The notes under the pieces were generated by a model. It searched no databases, was not told the origin of the DNA, and was given only the letters and a program-made list of their open reading frames with translations. From an uncultured Eggerthellaceae bacterium (lineage in GTDB: Bacteria > Actinomycetota > Coriobacteriia > Coriobacteriales > Eggerthellaceae), in assembly GCA_905234785.1 (NCBI GenBank), contig CAJOIP010000007.1, forward strand, positions 1 through 53,536: 53,536 nucleotides of DNA, read 5' to 3'. Shown here in pieces: positions 1 through 7,342 of this stretch (position 1 is its first letter; the number at the start of each line of letters is the position of its first letter). The position numbers were made by a program, and so were the translations under genes.

Positions 1-438
1 GACGACGTCGATGGAGTTGTCCTCGATGCCGATCTCGTCGAGCGCCTCGATGAAGCCCTTCTTGAACTCGACGTTGTCATAGCCCCACTTCTCGGCCATT
101 TCGGCATGGAACTTCTCGGCGATGCCGAGCTGGTCCTCGTTCATGTCGACGCCGATGACCTTGCCGGTCGGACCGACGAGCTTGGAGGCCAGGTACACGT
201 CGCGGCCGGTGCCGCAACCCAGGTCGAGCACCGTGCAACCCTCGAGCGCCGGGGGCAAGGGGCTTCCGCAGCCGTAGAAGCGCGAAGTCACGTCCTCGGG
301 GATGTCCCCCAGGATGTCCTGGATGTAAGCCGGCATGCACTCGGGGCCGCATGCGCACGTGTTCGTGGCCATCTCGCCATGCTCTTTCATGCTGACGTTG
401 CTGTAGTACTCTTTGATTTCCTCACGGGTAACTGCCAT
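1..438 (-). CDS. ArsM-like SAM-dependent methyltransferase, C-terminus off the window
   Basis: Only the first 146 residues are inside the window. The fold is a class I SAM methyltransferase of the arsenite methyltransferase type: motif I DLGCGTG lies at residues 72-78, FYGCGSP puts a Cys at 57, and an N-terminal cluster has Cys 28, 30 and 34. These match places where ArsM proteins carry As(III)-binding cysteines. The ATG at 438 has an AAAGGAAC ribosome binding site, which fixes the start. It is the first of three ArsM-type domains in the left 5 kb and most resembles the methyltransferase half of the fusion gene at 3045-5231. Whether it too continues into a radical SAM domain cannot be seen. 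Function in arsenic methylation is inferred from the family. Confidence 0.85.
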   Translation of the reverse strand, partial: MAVTREEIKEYYSNVSMKEHGEMATNTCACGPECMPAYIQDILGDIPEDVTSRFYGCGSPLPPALEGCTVLDLGCGTGRDVYLASKLVGPTGKVIGVDMNEDQLGIAEKFHAEMAEKWGYDNVEFKKGFIEALDEIGIEDNSIDVV

Positions 439-752: not shown

Positions 753-1688
753 CTATTCCCAAACTTCCTCGGCCGAATACGGGATGTTGCCACAGCCGGG
801 ATACGGGCCGCCGTGCTTCTCGTTTTCGCCGCGCTCGCCGCCGGTGATCTCGAAGTACTTGCCCACGCGGGTATTCTCGACCATGGCGCAGGAGTTGCCG
901 CACACGGACAGCGGCTCACCCTTCATGAAGCGATGATGGTCGTCGAGGTCGTAGTAATCCGGCGCACCCTCGATGCCGCCCTGATACGTCGCGTACTGAT
1001 AGTACTGCTCGCAGAGGTCCTCCAGGATTCCGGGGATCTTGTAGCAGCGCATCGTGCGCACGAAGTACGTCCAGTCGGCGACCTCGGCCGGCTGCTCCTT
1101 CTTGTAAATCGCCGTGCACATGCAGCGGATGGTCGGCCAGCCGGCCAGCGCGCAGAAGCGACGGTAATCCTCGATGTACAGGGCGCCGGCCAAGCCGAGC
1201 TCCTTCATCTTGTCGGTCTTCACGGCTTCGGGCGTGCGGCGGTCGACGAAGATGTCGCTCATGTAGAACTCGCCGCCGAACTTCAGGACGCGGTAGATGG
1301 TGTTCAGCTGCGTCTGCGTATCCGGAGCGGTGCTGACCGCGCCGTTGGCGATGACCAGGTCGATGGAATCGGACTTGATGCCCAGGCCGTTCAGCGTCAT
1401 GGGGCAGCCATGCACGATCTCGACGTTGTTCGCGCCGAGCTCTTCCTTGATCTCGTTGGCCTTCGCGACGAGGTCCTCATGATGCTCGACGCCGATGACG
1501 CGGCCGGTGGGACCGACGAGCTTGCCGGCGACGAACGCGTCGCGGCCGGCGCCGCATTCAAGCACGAGCACCGTGCAACCGTCCATCGCCAGAGGGAACG
1601 GATTGCCCCAATCAGGAGCGCCCTCGGAGGCCGCAGCGGGAATCTCGGCCAGAATGGAATCGATTGCAGCTTTCTGAATATCTGCCAT
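753..1688 (-). CDS. Degenerate ArsM-family methyltransferase lacking the arsenic-binding cysteines
   Basis: A 311-residue protein that aligns by eye with the ArsM domains at 1-438 and 3045-5231. It keeps the SAM fold (VLECGAGRD in place of DLGCGTGRD, then GPTGRVIGVE) and the C-terminal ArsM signature region (QYATYQGG, DLDDHHRFMKGEP, GNSCAMVE). The catalytic cysteines are gone: SNCV is replaced by ANGA, the ECLGGA motif by ELGLAGA, and the N-terminal Cys/FYGCG region is shortened and replaced. Other cysteines near the C-terminus remain. It is therefore either a non-catalytic partner of a neighbouring ArsM or a methyltransferase for another substrate. The ATG at 1688 follows GAGAGG. The reading frame is intact, so this is not a simple pseudogene. 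Confidence 0.8.
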   Translation of the reverse strand: MADIQKAAIDSILAEIPAAASEGAPDWGNPFPLAMDGCTVLVLECGAGRDAFVAGKLVGPTGRVIGVEHHEDLVAKANEIKEELGANNVEIVHGCPMTLNGLGIKSDSIDLVIANGAVSTAPDTQTQLNTIYRVLKFGGEFYMSDIFVDRRTPEAVKTDKMKELGLAGALYIEDYRRFCALAGWPTIRCMCTAIYKKEQPAEVADWTYFVRTMRCYKIPGILEDLCEQYYQYATYQGGIEGAPDYYDLDDHHRFMKGEPLSVCGNSCAMVENTRVGKYFEITGGERGENEKHGGPYPGCGNIPYSAEEVWE

Positions 1689-1863: not shown

Positions 1864-2670
1864 TTAGTTGGACGGAGCCTCGTTGGCCTTGTTGGCATGC
1901 AGCGGCTCGAGCCAGAACATCCAGAGCAGGGCACCCACGATGCCGCCCACGATGGGGGCGATGACGTAGACGACCCACACGCCCGGCGCGAAGACGACGG
2001 ACGGATCGGCGCCCATGACCAGCGACATGATGCGCGGCATGATGTCGCGGGCGGGGTTGAAGCCGGCGTCGGTCATCGGGCCGACGGTGCAGATGCCCAT
2101 GGTGATGGTCAAGCCGATGAACAGCGGGAAGATAACGTCGCCGGGCTTGCCCACGTTGGCATCCTCAGTCATCGAGAAGATGATGATCAGCAGGATGCAC
2201 AGGAAGATGCCCTCGCCGAGGGCGCCCTGCAGCACGTCGATGACCAGATGTCCGTTGTTCGGATACGGCTCGGCCCAGACGGTGAGGGCGGCGGCGTAGG
2301 TCGCCTGGTCGCCCAGGTCGGGCATGCCGGCCTGCAGCGCGGCCACCGTGGGGCCGAAGTACAGCCACAGGATGAAGGCCGCCACGAACGCGCCGAGGCA
2401 CTGGCCGATGAGGTAGATTGGCAGCTCCTTCCACGGCAGGCGCTTGGCGATGCACATGGCGATGGAGACGGCCGGGTTGAAGTGCGCGCACGACAGGTTG
2501 CGCGTTGCGTAGATGGCGATGGCGATGGTAACGCCCCACACCATGCCTACTTGGAAGGGACCCGTGTGGGCCCCGGCGAGAACGGCGGTTGCCACAGCAC
2601 CGATGCCAAAGAAACACATCAGGAAGGTGCCGAGGAACTCGCCGCTGAACGCCCTAGCTGGACTATTCAT
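1864..2670 (-). CDS. MIP-family aquaglyceroporin (glycerol/arsenite channel)
   Basis: Major intrinsic protein of 268 residues with six hydrophobic segments and both half-helix motifs: HFNPAVS in the first half and GFNPARD in the second. The Asp after NPAR is typical of glycerol facilitators rather than water-only aquaporins. Such channels also pass undissociated arsenite, and some bacteria encode one in ars operons (AqpS). No glycerol kinase or dehydrogenase is nearby, and methyltransferases of the ArsM type lie on both sides, so metalloid transport is the contextual inference. The ATG at 2670 is preceded by AAAGGAAC; an in-frame start at 2730 lacks such a site. It has its own promoter, a roughly 250-base leader and a hairpin inside that leader. 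Confidence 0.9.
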   Translation of the reverse strand: MNSPARAFSGEFLGTFLMCFFGIGAVATAVLAGAHTGPFQVGMVWGVTIAIAIYATRNLSCAHFNPAVSIAMCIAKRLPWKELPIYLIGQCLGAFVAAFILWLYFGPTVAALQAGMPDLGDQATYAAALTVWAEPYPNNGHLVIDVLQGALGEGIFLCILLIIIFSMTEDANVGKPGDVIFPLFIGLTITMGICTVGPMTDAGFNPARDIMPRIMSLVMGADPSVVFAPGVWVVYVIAPIVGGIVGALLWMFWLEPLHANKANEAPSN

Positions 2671-2921
2671 GCTTTTCTTGTTCCTTTCGCTCAAGTGACG
2701 ATTTGGGTTCACAAGGCGCAGAACAAGCAAGCAGCGGTATAATTACCACTGCTCTCACCTAGAGCACGTCGGCGGATCCGCTCATTCGACGGTCCTCGCA
2801 TGCTGGCCGGCATGCGTGTCACCGGAGCTGGTCCGCTGACATCTTCTCCGCCGCATGAGCGCGGGCAAACGCACCCGCACCGCGCCTTGCTAACCTAGCA
2901 AATTACTTCGTGTAATGTGCC
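2671..2921 (-). promoter_or_regulatory. Long structured leader RNA of the aquaglyceroporin gene (candidate riboswitch/attenuator)
   Basis: The transcript predicted from the promoter at 2928-2955 begins near 2921 and runs about 250 bases before the start codon. It contains many small hairpins in series: ATTAC/GTAAT, TTGCTA/TAGCAA, GCGGG/CCCGC, GTCA/TGAC, GCATGC/GCATGC and GCTCT/AGAGC. Two longer pairings cross each other (2847-2852 with 2771-2776, and 2855-2860 with 2780-2785), so they are alternatives or a pseudoknot. An intrinsic terminator-like hairpin follows at 2721-2752. I do not recognise any known riboswitch core. The layout promoter, structured leader, terminator, gene is that of a transcription-attenuating riboswitch. 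Confidence 0.5.
2721..2752 (-). terminator. Terminator-like hairpin within the aquaglyceroporin leader
   Basis: On the minus strand a 9-bp stem (GCAGTGGTA / TACCGCTGC, one G-U) with loop ATTA is followed by the T-rich TTGCTTGTTC. It lies 51 bases before the start codon. The adjacent hairpin GCTCT-AGGTG-AGAGC (2751-2765) shares its last two bases with this stem, so the two compete slightly. It might instead end transcripts arriving from the fusion gene at 3045. Confidence 0.55.
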
Positions 2922-2927
2922 AATATC

Positions 2928-2955
2928 ATTTTATAAGGATACTAGACGTTGTCAA
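2928..2955 (-). promoter_or_regulatory. Sigma-70-type promoter for the aquaglyceroporin leader
   Basis: Minus strand TTGACA (2950-2955), 16-base spacer, TAAAAT (2928-2933). The -35 is a perfect match. It sits in an AT-rich patch (2890-3010) between the fusion gene and the channel gene. Confidence 0.7.
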
Positions 2956-3044: not shown

Positions 3045-5231
3045 CTACACGAGCGCGCCGCCGCATGAGCTGCCGAAACCGGCAGCGCAGCTGTAGCAGA
3101 GCGGGTTCGTGCGAACCTGGCGCGGCGGCAGCTGGCCCGCGAGCACATCGTCGATAGTCGCGTCGCGCGCCCCTTCCCCCTCGCCCACCTGAATGGGAAG
3201 GCCCAGCACGTGGTTCGGCTCGCAGTCGTACAGGCGGCCGTCGTAGTCGACGTTCACCATGTCGAGGCACATGAGCCGCGTGATGGCCATGGCGTTGAAG
3301 TTGTCGGCGAGCAGCGCCAGGTAATCGTCGAACATGCCCATGTCGAGCAAATCGGCGGCAAAGCGCCCGCACGCCCAGTTGTTGAACGCGAAGAGGCTGT
3401 CGAACTTCACGCCGAAATCGCGCTCGAGCACCTTGTGATACTGCGCCTCGATCATGTCTTGCGGCAGCGGCAGGAACGGACCCGCCACGTTGTACACGAG
3501 GTCGAGTTTGAGAAGTTTTCCCGCTTGACCGCTTCGCGGAGATCCTTCGACTCCGCGCTGCGCGCTTCGCTCAGGATGACAGGTTAAGGGAGCGTGCGCG
3601 CTTCGCTCAGGATGACAGGTTAAGGGAGCGTGCGCGCTCTGCTCGGGATGACAAGAACCCATGCCATAGCCTCGGGTATTTAGCTCGCGGATGCTGGCGA
3701 TGGCGCGCTCGAACACGCGCGAACCGCGCTGGCTAGCCGTGCCCTTCGGGTCGTAGAACGGAAGCGACGCCACGATGTGCGGGCCCACTTCGGCGAACAC
3801 GTCGAGGAAGCGCGCGTACTCGGGCTGCTGTTCCAGCGTCAGGTTCGTGCGCACGATGACGTCGCCGAGCTTGGCCGACTCGCGCAAGAACCACTCGAAG
3901 TCGGGATGCAGCTCGGGGCTGCCGCCCGTGATGTCCATGACCTCGAAGCCGCCGGCCGAAAACGCGTCGAGGCACTTCTGCAGCGTCTCGCGCGACATGG
4001 CCTCGGTGTTCTTGGGGCTGCATTCCAGATAGCAGTGGCGGCACGCCAGATTGCAGGCGTACGTGATGTTCACCTGCATGGTCGCCTGATGCTCGCGCGT
4101 CTGCAGCAGCGTCGGCTGGCCGACGCGCTCCTCGAACGTCAGGTAATCGGCCTGGTCGTAGGCATCCTGCAGCATCTTCAAGTCGACGGCGCGCTTACCG
4201 CGGCGCACCTCGAGCGCCTGCTGTGCGCGCTCGGCATTGAACGCGCCCCGATGAAGGCGCGGCTTCGACACCTCGAAGAACGCGCCGTAGCGCGACGCTT
4301 CCAGCATACGCGCCGTGTTGCCGCTAATGGCGCGGGGCTTGCCCTTCACGAAGCGCAAATTGCTGTCGAAATCGAAATAGCGCGGCATCTCGGGCATGCC
4401 GCCCAGATAGGTGGCGTGCTGGCCATAGTCTTCCTCGGTTTCCTCCAGCCCATCGCACTTGATGGCGCGAATGGTGCGGCTGCGGAAGCTCGTGAAGCCG
4501 ACGCGCGTCTCGATGGCAAGGTCGCCCACGTACATGGGGTCGTCGACCGTCCACACGAAATGCGGCCAGCCCGCGCGGCGCATGAGCTGGCGGAAGTCCT
4601 CAGCGTACGTGGCGCCGCCCAGGCACTCGCTGTGCAAGATGGGGTCGTCGCGCAGCTCTTCGGGCAGGCGGCGGCTGGCGTACACGTCGCTGAAGTACAG
4701 CTCGCCGCCAGGCTTCAGCACCCGGTACACCTCGCTCATGACCATGTCCTTGAACGGGGACAGGTTCACCACGCAGTTGGAAACCACGAGGTCGATCGAT
4801 TCGTCCTCGATTCCGCACCCGGCCAAGTCCTCGATGTAGCCTAGGCGGAATTCGACGTTGCTCTTTGCATGGCCGAAGCGCTCAGCCTGTTCCCGTTGGT
4901 AGCGCTTGGCCACTTCCAGCTGCTCGGGCGTCATGTCCACGCCGATGACGCGGCCGGTCTCGCCCACGAGTTTCGACAGCACGTACACGTCGCGCCCCGT
5001 GCCGCAGCCCAAATCGAGTACCGTGCAGCCTTCGAGCGCGGGCGGGATGGGCGAACCACAGCCGTAGAACCGCGCGATGATCTCGTCGGCGATGAGCGGC
5101 ATGACGTCGAGCACGTACTTCGGGGGCGGCACCGCCTCGCAATGCGGCGCATTCGTGCCCAGGTCATCCGACCCGGACAGCGTGCGTCCGTAGTACTCGC
5201 GCACCTCGTCATGTATCGTCGTCAGTTCCAT
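3045..5231 (-). CDS. ArsM-ArsS fusion: arsenite methyltransferase plus radical SAM/Cys-rich domain
   Basis: A 728-residue two-domain enzyme. Residues 1-325 are a complete ArsM: Cys 31 and 58, motif I DLGCGTG at 73-79, SNCVVNL (Cys 153) and SECLGGA (Cys 203), so all expected As-binding cysteines are present. Residues 380-728 are an ArsS-type radical SAM domain with CNLACRHC (Cys 393, 397, 400), the GG motif DITGGSPELHP, and a C-terminal Cys cluster CYSCAAGFGSSCGG. ArsM and ArsS are neighbours or fused in arsenosugar-type pathways, where ArsS is thought to add a SAM-derived 5-deoxyadenosyl group to methylated arsenic. Residues 526-568 are an in-frame repetitive insertion (see separate entry). 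The ATG at 5231 follows GGGAGGAG; the longer frame to 5333 runs into a fold-back element and was rejected. Confidence 0.88.
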   Translation of the reverse strand: MELTTIHDEVREYYGRTLSGSDDLGTNAPHCEAVPPPKYVLDVMPLIADEIIARFYGCGSPIPPALEGCTVLDLGCGTGRDVYVLSKLVGETGRVIGVDMTPEQLEVAKRYQREQAERFGHAKSNVEFRLGYIEDLAGCGIEDESIDLVVSNCVVNLSPFKDMVMSEVYRVLKPGGELYFSDVYASRRLPEELRDDPILHSECLGGATYAEDFRQLMRRAGWPHFVWTVDDPMYVGDLAIETRVGFTSFRSRTIRAIKCDGLEETEEDYGQHATYLGGMPEMPRYFDFDSNLRFVKGKPRAISGNTARMLEASRYGAFFEVSKPRLHRGAFNAERAQQALEVRRGKRAVDLKMLQDAYDQADYLTFEERVGQPTLLQTREHQATMQVNITYACNLACRHCYLECSPKNTEAMSRETLQKCLDAFSAGGFEVMDITGGSPELHPDFEWFLRESAKLGDVIVRTNLTLEQQPEYARFLDVFAEVGPHIVASLPFYDPKGTASQRGSRVFERAIASIRELNTRGYGMGSCHPEQSAHAPLTCHPERSAHAPLTCHPERSAQRGVEGSPRSGQAGKLLKLDLVYNVAGPFLPLPQDMIEAQYHKVLERDFGVKFDSLFAFNNWACGRFAADLLDMGMFDDYLALLADNFNAMAITRLMCLDMVNVDYDGRLYDCEPNHVLGLPIQVGEGEGARDATIDDVLAGQLPPRQVRTNPLCYSCAAGFGSSCGGALV
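3528..3655. repeat. REP-like repeat inserted in frame in the ArsS domain, with a 36-base tandem duplication
   Basis: This DNA matches the dispersed REP-like family also seen at 12028-12117, 47291-47335 and 50959-50994 (core with cttcgcggagatcc and ctcaggatgaca). It contains a tandem repeat of 36 bases: 3561-3596, 3597-3632 and a partial third copy to 3655. As 36 is a multiple of three, the frame stays open and encodes a 12-residue repeat, CHPERSAHAPLT, then CHPERSAQRGVEGSP. The stand-alone ArsS at 19839-20828 lacks it. Confidence 0.9.
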
Positions 5232-5279: not shown

Positions 5280-5406
5280 GCCGAATGACGTGCGTGTGAA
5301 GCGAATATCGTAGAAATCGTCTTCGAAATCCACTTTTCGCAGCGTAGCGAAGAAAAGTTAGTTCGAGGCGATTTCCAGATTGAGCGGAACACGCACGTCA
5401 TTCGGC
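5280..5406. mobile_element. Fold-back (MITE-like) palindromic element, 127 bp
   Basis: Perfect 18-base inverted ends (5280-5297 and 5389-5406, GCCGAATGACGTGCGTGT outward). The interior is also nearly symmetric: gaaatcg and acttttcgc on the left recur as their complement on the right, so the whole element can fold into one long hairpin. Its right end supplies the last bases and stop codon of the CobW gene (5398). No clear target duplication is seen. It separates the ABC-CobW operon from the ArsM-ArsS fusion. Confidence 0.7.
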
Positions 5407-6537
5407 ATATCTAGATGCTCGCCCACCATTGCGGCGGCCTTCGTCCGCAAACCCGAAGCACTCGGTGAAGATGACGCGGCACTTCAGGTTGTACTTGGCC
5501 TTGATGGCGTCCATGGCGTCTTCGGCGATGTCGCCGAACGTCTCGGATTCGCACACGGCGCGCGCGTTCACGACGATGGCGATGCCCGAGTACTCATGGT
5601 CGAGCTTGCGTTCGAATTCCAGGTCGTAGTCGATGCCCACGATCGAGCACTTCACGAAATCGTCGCCCTCGCCCGCCGCGAACAGTTTCAGGTGCGGCAC
5701 GTTGCGCTTCGCCTCGATGAGGCCCTCGCGGATGGCCTCCATGAAGTCCTCGATGACGGCGTTGAAGTCGATGTTGCGCCCATCGCGCTCCTCGGCGAAG
5801 AAGCGGCGGTTGTACCAGCACATCTGCGCTTCTGCCGCATCGAATTCCTCGGAATCGGTGCCCAGGTCGCGCGGCTCGGCAGCCGCTTCGTGCGACAGCA
5901 GGTAATCGACCAGCTCGTCGATGCCCTCGCCCGTTCGCGCGGAGATGGCCATGACCGGGATATCCGGATACGCCTTGCGGATGAACGCCAAATCGGCTTT
6001 GCGTTCCTCGTCGCCGATGAGGTCGATCTTGTTCAGCACGATGACGTCGGCTTCGGCAAGCTGCGCGTTCAGCAAGAAGCGCATTTCCTCGGGCAGATGG
6101 ATGTCCTCGCCTTCCGGCAGGATCATGCGCAGGCGCATCGGGTCGACCAGGCACACGAGCGGCAGCAGGTCGAACTTGCCGGGGTACTGCTCCTTCAGCG
6201 GCACGTACACGTGGTTGAGCGCGCCCACGCCGCAACCGGGGATGTCCGACACCACGATGCCCGCGCCGTCGTCGGCCAGGCGGTTGATGTGGTACACGAG
6301 GTCATCGGTTATATAGCAAATGCAATCGCCGGGAATCTCGTCGATGGGCACGTCGGCCGTGCGCGTGTAGTCGGCGTCGACCAGGTTCTTGGCGCCCAGG
6401 TCGTTGGCGATAATCGCCACATGGGAAGGCTCGCCTTCCTTCTGGTCGCGGGCATTGACGGCGCGGGCAAGCGCGATCATGGCCGTGGTCTTGCCCGACC
6501 CCAGAAACCCGCTGAAAATCATGTACTTCGTGTTCAT
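5398..6537 (-). CDS. CobW/COG0523-family GTPase (metal chaperone type)
   Basis: 379-residue G3E P-loop GTPase. Walker A GFLGSGKT spans residues 10-17, the switch II region reads SDIPGCG, and the base-recognition motif is NKID. In place of the usual GCxCC metal-binding motif it has GDCICY, followed later by PGCGVG, so metal binding may differ from zinc-handling CobW proteins. Family members load or deliver metals or cofactors with GTP hydrolysis. It is 28 bases after a Cys-rich DUF5714 gene and belongs to the operon starting with the ABC transporter at 11027. The ATG at 6537 follows AAAGGGAT. The C-terminal end lies in the fold-back element, so the native tail may have been changed by its insertion. 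Confidence 0.85.
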   Translation of the reverse strand: MNTKYMIFSGFLGSGKTTAMIALARAVNARDQKEGEPSHVAIIANDLGAKNLVDADYTRTADVPIDEIPGDCICYITDDLVYHINRLADDGAGIVVSDIPGCGVGALNHVYVPLKEQYPGKFDLLPLVCLVDPMRLRMILPEGEDIHLPEEMRFLLNAQLAEADVIVLNKIDLIGDEERKADLAFIRKAYPDIPVMAISARTGEGIDELVDYLLSHEAAAEPRDLGTDSEEFDAAEAQMCWYNRRFFAEERDGRNIDFNAVIEDFMEAIREGLIEAKRNVPHLKLFAAGEGDDFVKCSIVGIDYDLEFERKLDHEYSGIAIVVNARAVCESETFGDIAEDAMDAIKAKYNLKCRVIFTECFGFADEGRRNGGRASRYAE

Positions 6538-6565
6538 GCGATCCCTTTCGGACAGAGGAACCAGT

Positions 6566-7342
6566 TTACCCCACCCAGCGCTTGTCGGCATGGGGCTGGA
6601 AGGACGCCTTCACTTCCTCGCCGGCACCGGGGAAATACGGGCATTCCGTGCGGCGGCATTCGGCATTGCGCTGGTAAAACGTGCACACGACCTCGTCGGG
6701 CAACTGCATGTTGGCGCCGAGCGTCATGTCAATGTAGGGCACCGCCGTGATGATGGACGTGTAGCCCGTGCGCTTGCAGCAGCGCGGGCCGCCCAGGTCG
6801 GCCAAGCGCCCCAAGATCATCGACGTCAGGCGCTGGCATTGCGCCCACGGCTCCTGCGTCATGGGCGTCGAACCGTTCAGCACGCTCATGGCCTGACCGG
6901 CCGAAACCGCTGCGCCGCACGTGCCCCAGAAGCCGCACGTGCCGCCCGGCACCTGCAGGCTGCGGCGCTTCAGCTCGGCAAGCGCGGCGTCTTTGTCGAG
7001 CGGCTCGCCCTTGGGGTTCTTGCCGCCCGCGTTCGCGTACGCCGTGATGAGCGACGCGCCGATGAGCGTGTGGTGCTCGGGGCCGTTCGGGTAAATCGAC
7101 TTGTCGTTCATGGCCTCGTTGATGATCTCGATCGGGTCGGTGGAAGTCGATTTCGAGCACAGGCCCATGATGTAGTCGACGCCTTCGGAACGGTGGCAGT
7201 CGTTGCACACGTAATGGCCGTCCTGGCAGATGGAATGGCCGAATTCCTTCTTGCCGCAGATGTGGCACGCAACCTCCTGGGCCTCATCCCAGTACACCAG
7301 CGGCTCGCCGCACACCAGGCAGTTCGCCTTTCCTATCGACAT
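6566..7342 (-). CDS. DUF5714 Cys-rich protein
   Basis: 258 residues with an unusual density of cysteines: CLVCG near residue 9, CHICGKK, CQDGHYVCNDCH, then GGTCGFWGTCGAA, RCCKRTG and CRRTECPYFPG. The N-terminal pairs look like a zinc ribbon or rubredoxin-like knuckle; the later ones may bind a metal or Fe-S cluster. I recognise it as DUF5714, a family without an assigned reaction. It stands between the LRR gene and the CobW GTPase with gaps of 22 and 28 bases, so the three are co-transcribed. A role as the client or scaffold that the GTPase loads is inference only. GAGAGG precedes the ATG at 7342. Confidence 0.8.
   Translation of the reverse strand: MSIGKANCLVCGEPLVYWDEAQEVACHICGKKEFGHSICQDGHYVCNDCHRSEGVDYIMGLCSKSTSTDPIEIINEAMNDKSIYPNGPEHHTLIGASLITAYANAGGKNPKGEPLDKDAALAELKRRSLQVPGGTCGFWGTCGAAVSAGQAMSVLNGSTPMTQEPWAQCQRLTSMILGRLADLGGPRCCKRTGYTSIITAVPYIDMTLGANMQLPDEVVCTFYQRNAECRRTECPYFPGAGEEVKASFQPHADKRWVG

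Follow-up and report, generated by a model that had tools for sequence, protein, structure and literature searches.

The window, by which we mean the whole 53,536-nucleotide stretch of DNA analysed, comes from an uncultured Eggerthellaceae bacterium and carries on its minus strand a promoter, a 5' untranslated region (UTR) of about 250 nt and then the gene of a MIP-family channel protein, an aquaglyceroporin. The next gene downstream encodes an ArsM-like methyltransferase, and another ArsM gene is cut off by the end of the window. Upstream of the channel gene, on the same strand, lies an ArsM-ArsS fusion gene (TIGR04167, 303.8 bits; cut-off 300). The six neighbouring proteins that were scanned in the window included no ArsR. 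Within the ArsS part of the fusion, a tandem repeat with a 36-base unit (2.6 copies, 3559-3653, within window positions 3530-3660) forms an in-frame insertion, and the orthologue in the relative L058 is without these ~40 residues. Two genes upstream of the fusion gene encode a CobW-type GTPase and a DUF5714 protein with similarity to the double selenoprotein MbdU (164 bits, under the cut-off). The sole Rfam match in the window is the bacterial small SRP RNA (RF00169, 51028-51125, 58.6 bits). The features of the locus are collected in Table 1.

Table 1. Features of the leader and of the genes around it, in window positions.
Feature	Position	Strand	Remarks
Promoter TTGACA-16-TAAAAT	2955-2928	minus	11/12 consensus; conserved in four orthologues; spacer with conserved motif RTCYANTAT
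P1 hairpin, GGCACAUUA / UAAUUUGCU, 7-nt loop	2921-2897	minus	presumed transcript start
P2 5' strand GGUUAGCAAGGCGCGG	2895-2880	minus	long-range closing helix
P3 5' strand GCUCAUGCGGCGG	2860-2848	minus	weak in L060
Helix H 5' strand GUCAGCGGA (helix 4)	2840-2832	minus	alternative to P3 and P3 inner hairpin
P5 hairpin (helix 6)	2816-2797	minus	invariant CGGCCA hexaloop 2809-2804; stem covaries; arm-swap rank 1/24
P3 3' strand CCGUCGAAUGAGC	2792-2780	minus	
Helix H 3' strand UCCGCCGAC	2776-2768	minus	within strongly conserved block
P6a segment GCUCUAGGUGAGAGC (helix 7)	2765-2751	minus	invariant, hence no covariation evidence
P6b hairpin	2754-2729	minus	UAUUAUA-like loop; hairpin earlier described as terminator-like; arm-swap rank 1/24
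Anti-Shine-Dalgarno strand CUUGUUC	2727-2721	minus	pairs with GAACAAG
P2 3' strand CUGCGCCUUGUGAACC	2721-2706	minus	also within Shine-Dalgarno-masking hairpin; proposed switching strand
GAACAAG	2683-2677	minus	overlaps 3' side of Shine-Dalgarno region AAAGGAACAAG; partner of CUUGUUC
MIP-family channel (aquaglyceroporin) gene	1864..2670	minus	downstream of leader; Pfam PF00230, 131 bits
ArsM-like methyltransferase gene	753..1688	minus	PRK11873 arsenite methyltransferase, 113 bits, under cut-off 263
ArsM gene, truncated by window end	1..438	minus	L059 and L060 orthologues 199 bits on PRK11873 (cut-off 263)
DUF5714 protein and CobW-type GTPase	6566-7342 and 5398-6591		

The promoter claimed in the initial annotation is present, and sites of the same hexamer class and spacing stand before all four orthologous channel genes described below, so that each of the five loci has a promoter matching 11 of 12 consensus positions with a 16-base spacer. 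Two promoter-like sites were found in the region, against 0.4 expected. The leader had also been described as rich in hairpins, and its strong folding bears this out: its predicted energy is -112.5 kcal/mol, compared with -87.6 kcal/mol for dinucleotide shuffles (z -5.3; 0 of 200 shuffles). A search against Rfam 15 matched no family to the leader at gathering scores, and at a permissive threshold the best match reached 17.5 bits (threshold 55), the level of chance, in agreement with the earlier remark that no known riboswitch core could be recognised.

A scan with the channel protein led to four further loci (L058, L059, L060 and L068) at which the orthologous gene is preceded by the same promoter and leader, all in metagenome-assembled genomes labelled Eggerthellaceae or Coriobacteriaceae, which correspond to G004, G008, G013 and G014 of the window's genus. 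A plain DNA search for relatives recovered L058, the closest relative, strongly and L059 weakly, its other matches being due to chance. The leader is known from five species of one genus, the window's and four others, and all five leaders fold better than their shuffles (z -2.2 to -5.2). A covariance model of the core scored 91-117 bits in these five leaders and found nothing comparable elsewhere in the searched genomes of the family (138), the order (397) or the class (398). Its best match outside the five orthologues (L095, 30.7 bits) lies inside a glmM coding sequence and was rejected; L096 and lower matches score at the level of chance. The leader is also absent before channel genes about 50% identical, including L074 and L075 of the same genus. 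The leader of these two genes is of another form and shorter; it carries GCAAAU close to its start and AUUUGC/GUUGC close to the Shine-Dalgarno sequence, and is possibly a second leader type.

The initial annotation had taken a lack of covariation among homologues as the result that would speak against a riboswitch-like leader. Covariation is present: RNAalifold, applied to a plain MAFFT alignment, gave 46 consensus pairs, 18 of which have both sides changed in at least one sequence, while shuffling the partners gave a mean of 8.3 such pairs and reached 18 in 0 of 500 trials. The signal was lost when partners were slid by one column, and the consensus energy had a z of -6.2 relative to column shuffles. 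We also used an arm-swap test, in which the arms of each helix were anchored on invariant sequence, leaving no choice by eye, and exchanged among the four more distant lineages. Of 24 assignments, the cognate one ranked first for P1, P5, P6b and the Shine-Dalgarno helix and second for P2, and 0 of 200,000 permutations equalled it when the helices were combined, in a sample that is small (n=5 sequences, ~4 lineages). Both-side changes occur in 3 pairs of P1 (helix 1) and in 5 pairs of P2 (helix 3). Conservation clusters in loops and helix blocks, the invariant ones including the P5 hexaloop CGGCCA, a block around AUNCGCCG, the segment GCUC...AGAGCA, and the 3' side of P1 with UGCU.GG. The P6a segment reads GCUCUGGGU(A)AGAGC in relatives and, in its extended form, competes with P6b, because the strand GAGC is common to both.

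Two mutually crossing long-range pairings had been proposed within this leader. Both complementarities exist, but only that of GCUCAU (2860-2855) with AUGAGC (2785-2780) sits in a helix that the relatives keep; that of GGCGGA (2852-2847) with UCCGCC (2776-2771) is interrupted in L058, and we replaced it with helix H, since 2776-2768 can pair with 2840-2832, a partner that is better conserved. The five sequences together present what is looked for in a riboswitch, a conserved, structured 5' UTR with covariation. The leader is real, new and narrowly distributed, with a riboswitch-like architecture, and the covariation supports it as an RNA family not described before.

It could be argued that regulation here is exerted by the promoter only, through a transcription factor acting on the RTCYANTAT spacer, and that the folds of the leader are a by-product of a GC-rich genome. 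The spacer motif TTGACANNRTCYANTAT (window 2955-2939; G007:C3:47628-47644) is indeed conserved: of six genomes searched, five have a single copy each, and it stands only before aquaglyceroporin genes, even in G007, where the leader differs; it is possibly the operator of an unknown regulator. Further, in some species pairs the overall identity of the leader is not above that at four-fold sites of the channel gene. However, every leader folds beyond its shuffles, the covariation too exceeds them, and the conserved positions gather in loops and helix blocks, so that the part of the argument that relies on chance folds is largely refuted by the arm-swap, alifold and covariation tests. A promoter layer could also coexist with the leader, and a transcription factor may act at the spacer motif in addition to it. 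As a complete account, control by the promoter only is in our judgement highly improbable.

The hairpin P6b had been described as terminator-like; it does fit a loose terminator pattern, but shuffles give 0.8 such matches, and the U-rich stretch that follows it pairs with the Shine-Dalgarno region, which accounts for its presence. No terminator-like site was found on the gene's strand in L058, L059 or L060, and in L068 there is a single weak one. A transcription attenuator with an intrinsic terminator was thus rejected, there being no conserved hairpin of this kind, GC-rich and with a U-tract, ahead of the gene. Since no canonical terminator is conserved, translation is a more likely output than termination, and the leader probably acts on the former. 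Translation could itself be the controlling event if a short open reading frame (uORF) starting in the leader at about -114 were translated and its ribosome opened or closed the start region of the gene. All five leaders have a start codon at -113 to -116 (ATG; GTG in L060), and in L058, L059 and L060 the frame ends at ATGA over the start codon of the channel gene. Yet the frame stops after 8 codons in the window and 15 in L068, it is displaced between species by single-base indels within the GCUCUGGGU(A)AGAGC segment, the peptides are unrelated, and the helix covariation requires no peptide. With a common start position but neither frames nor peptides conserved, we rejected control by a leader peptide or uORF, to which we attach a very small probability.

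In the isolated 3' part of the leaders, the Shine-Dalgarno region is predicted to be masked by an upstream strand in four of the five species (window, L058, L060 and L068). The masking partners vary by species in a compensated manner: CUUGUUC/GAACAAG in the window, CCAAUUC/GAAUUGG within a longer helix in L060, and CUUUCUUGUUCC/GGAAUAGGAAAG in L068. The predicted masking hairpin includes the 3' strand of P2, so P2 and the hairpin are mutually exclusive in a nested fold. In the predicted ensembles, P2 with the site free is favoured for the window and L058, and masking of the site for L060 and L068; the P6a values computed for the window and L058 in this step rested on a wrong match position and were left out. 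In L059 no masking helix was found (arm-swap p 0.98; z +1.3 in the isolated 3' part), and this is the main gap in the switch model.

According to this model, transcription would begin at or just before P1, judging from the position of the promoter. In one fold, P2 would close a domain containing the hairpin with the CGGCCA loop and the GCUCUGGGU(A)AGAGC segment, leaving the ribosome-binding site free; in the other, the 3' strand of P2 would be drawn into the hairpin in which the Shine-Dalgarno region is covered by CUUGUUC. Stabilisation of the P2-closed domain by a signal would turn translation on. We infer that the two folds interchange in the cell, with translation as the output and with this direction of switching, in response to a small molecule that is most plausibly related to arsenic. 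The proposal of a riboswitch-like cis-regulatory leader is thus supported by conservation, by covariation and, in four of five species, by a predicted alternative fold that masks the Shine-Dalgarno region, and we lean towards the view that such a leader would control translation of the aquaglyceroporin in its arsenic-methylation neighbourhood.

The main rival is a structured leader that works without a small-molecule ligand, the same folds masking and exposing the ribosome-binding site while the RNA is bound by a protein (for example in autoregulation by an operon product), pairs with a small RNA or responds to temperature. Most riboswitch classes are distributed more widely than one genus, so the confinement of this leader counts against a riboswitch, and such a range is typical of protein-bound or lineage-specific leaders. 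In addition, the CGGCCA loop could be a protein or kissing site, and competition for a strand between P2 and the masking hairpin requires no ligand. On the other hand, the long conserved internal blocks outside simple hairpins resemble, if weakly, an aptamer more than a single protein-binding hairpin. We regard a ligand-free leader as possible, though rather unlikely.

If the leader does respond to a small molecule, the neighbouring genes point to its nature. ArsM lies 3' of the channel gene in the window and in most relatives examined, Bacillota included. The order recurs in L058, L059, L060 and L067, in other Coriobacteriia (L061, L064, L065 and L073) and in the genera Peptoniphilus and Aedoeadaptatus (L062, L063 and L066), and the pair also occurs in L074-L077 and L087; ArsM was not seen in the short flanks examined of L080, L081 and L086. 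The channel gene of L067 (G014:C238) appears frameshifted, with residues 25-114 and 126-263 in different frames, by assembly error or decay. The recurring pair suggests that the channel moves arsenicals, and transport of this kind has been described: arsenite passes through E. coli GlpF, and methylarsenite is moved by rat AQP9 and by yeast Fps1p (PMC1440775). On account of this gene context and these transport properties, an arsenic-related signal is our leading guess and is favoured over glycerol, which is less likely because it is ArsM that is conserved beside the channel; a glycerol-kinase-like gene lies on another contig. Since trivalent arsenic chemically prefers thiols to RNA, the metalloid is no more plausible as the signal than a metabolite of the pathway. 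We know of no natural precedent for the binding of trivalent arsenic by RNA, and no description of an arsenic riboswitch was found in the literature searched. We consider it doubtful that the leader represents a riboswitch class not seen before, one that would be the first to recognise an arsenic species or a metabolite of arsenic methylation and that would control the ArsM-adjacent aquaglyceroporin in gut Eggerthellaceae. If what the leader senses were an arsenical or a metabolite linked to one, it would be, to our knowledge, the first RNA sensor of arsenic chemistry, in gut bacteria with arsenic-methylation genes; even without a ligand it offers a clear and testable switch, and the genes beside it narrow the candidate ligands to a short list.

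Among known systems, ArsR-controlled ars operons with an aquaglyceroporin of the AqpS type share with this locus an aquaglyceroporin gene that adjoins arsenic-handling genes, but here the conserved partner is ArsM, a structured leader stands between promoter and gene, and the adjacent genes annotated in the window include no ArsR gene. Orphan riboswitch candidates are similar in combining a conserved, structured 5' UTR with a suggestive gene context, although the distribution of this leader is far narrower and its gene context single; two riboswitch reviews mention neither arsenic nor aquaporins. Masking of the Shine-Dalgarno sequence is used by translation-acting riboswitches, such as many SAM, preQ1 and TPP riboswitches of Gram-negative and actinobacterial genes. 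Unlike these, whose ligands are known, the leader matches no Rfam family and occurs in one genus only, but like them it is a long conserved 5' UTR in which the 3' strand of the closing helix is predicted to be reused in a hairpin that masks the ribosome-binding site.
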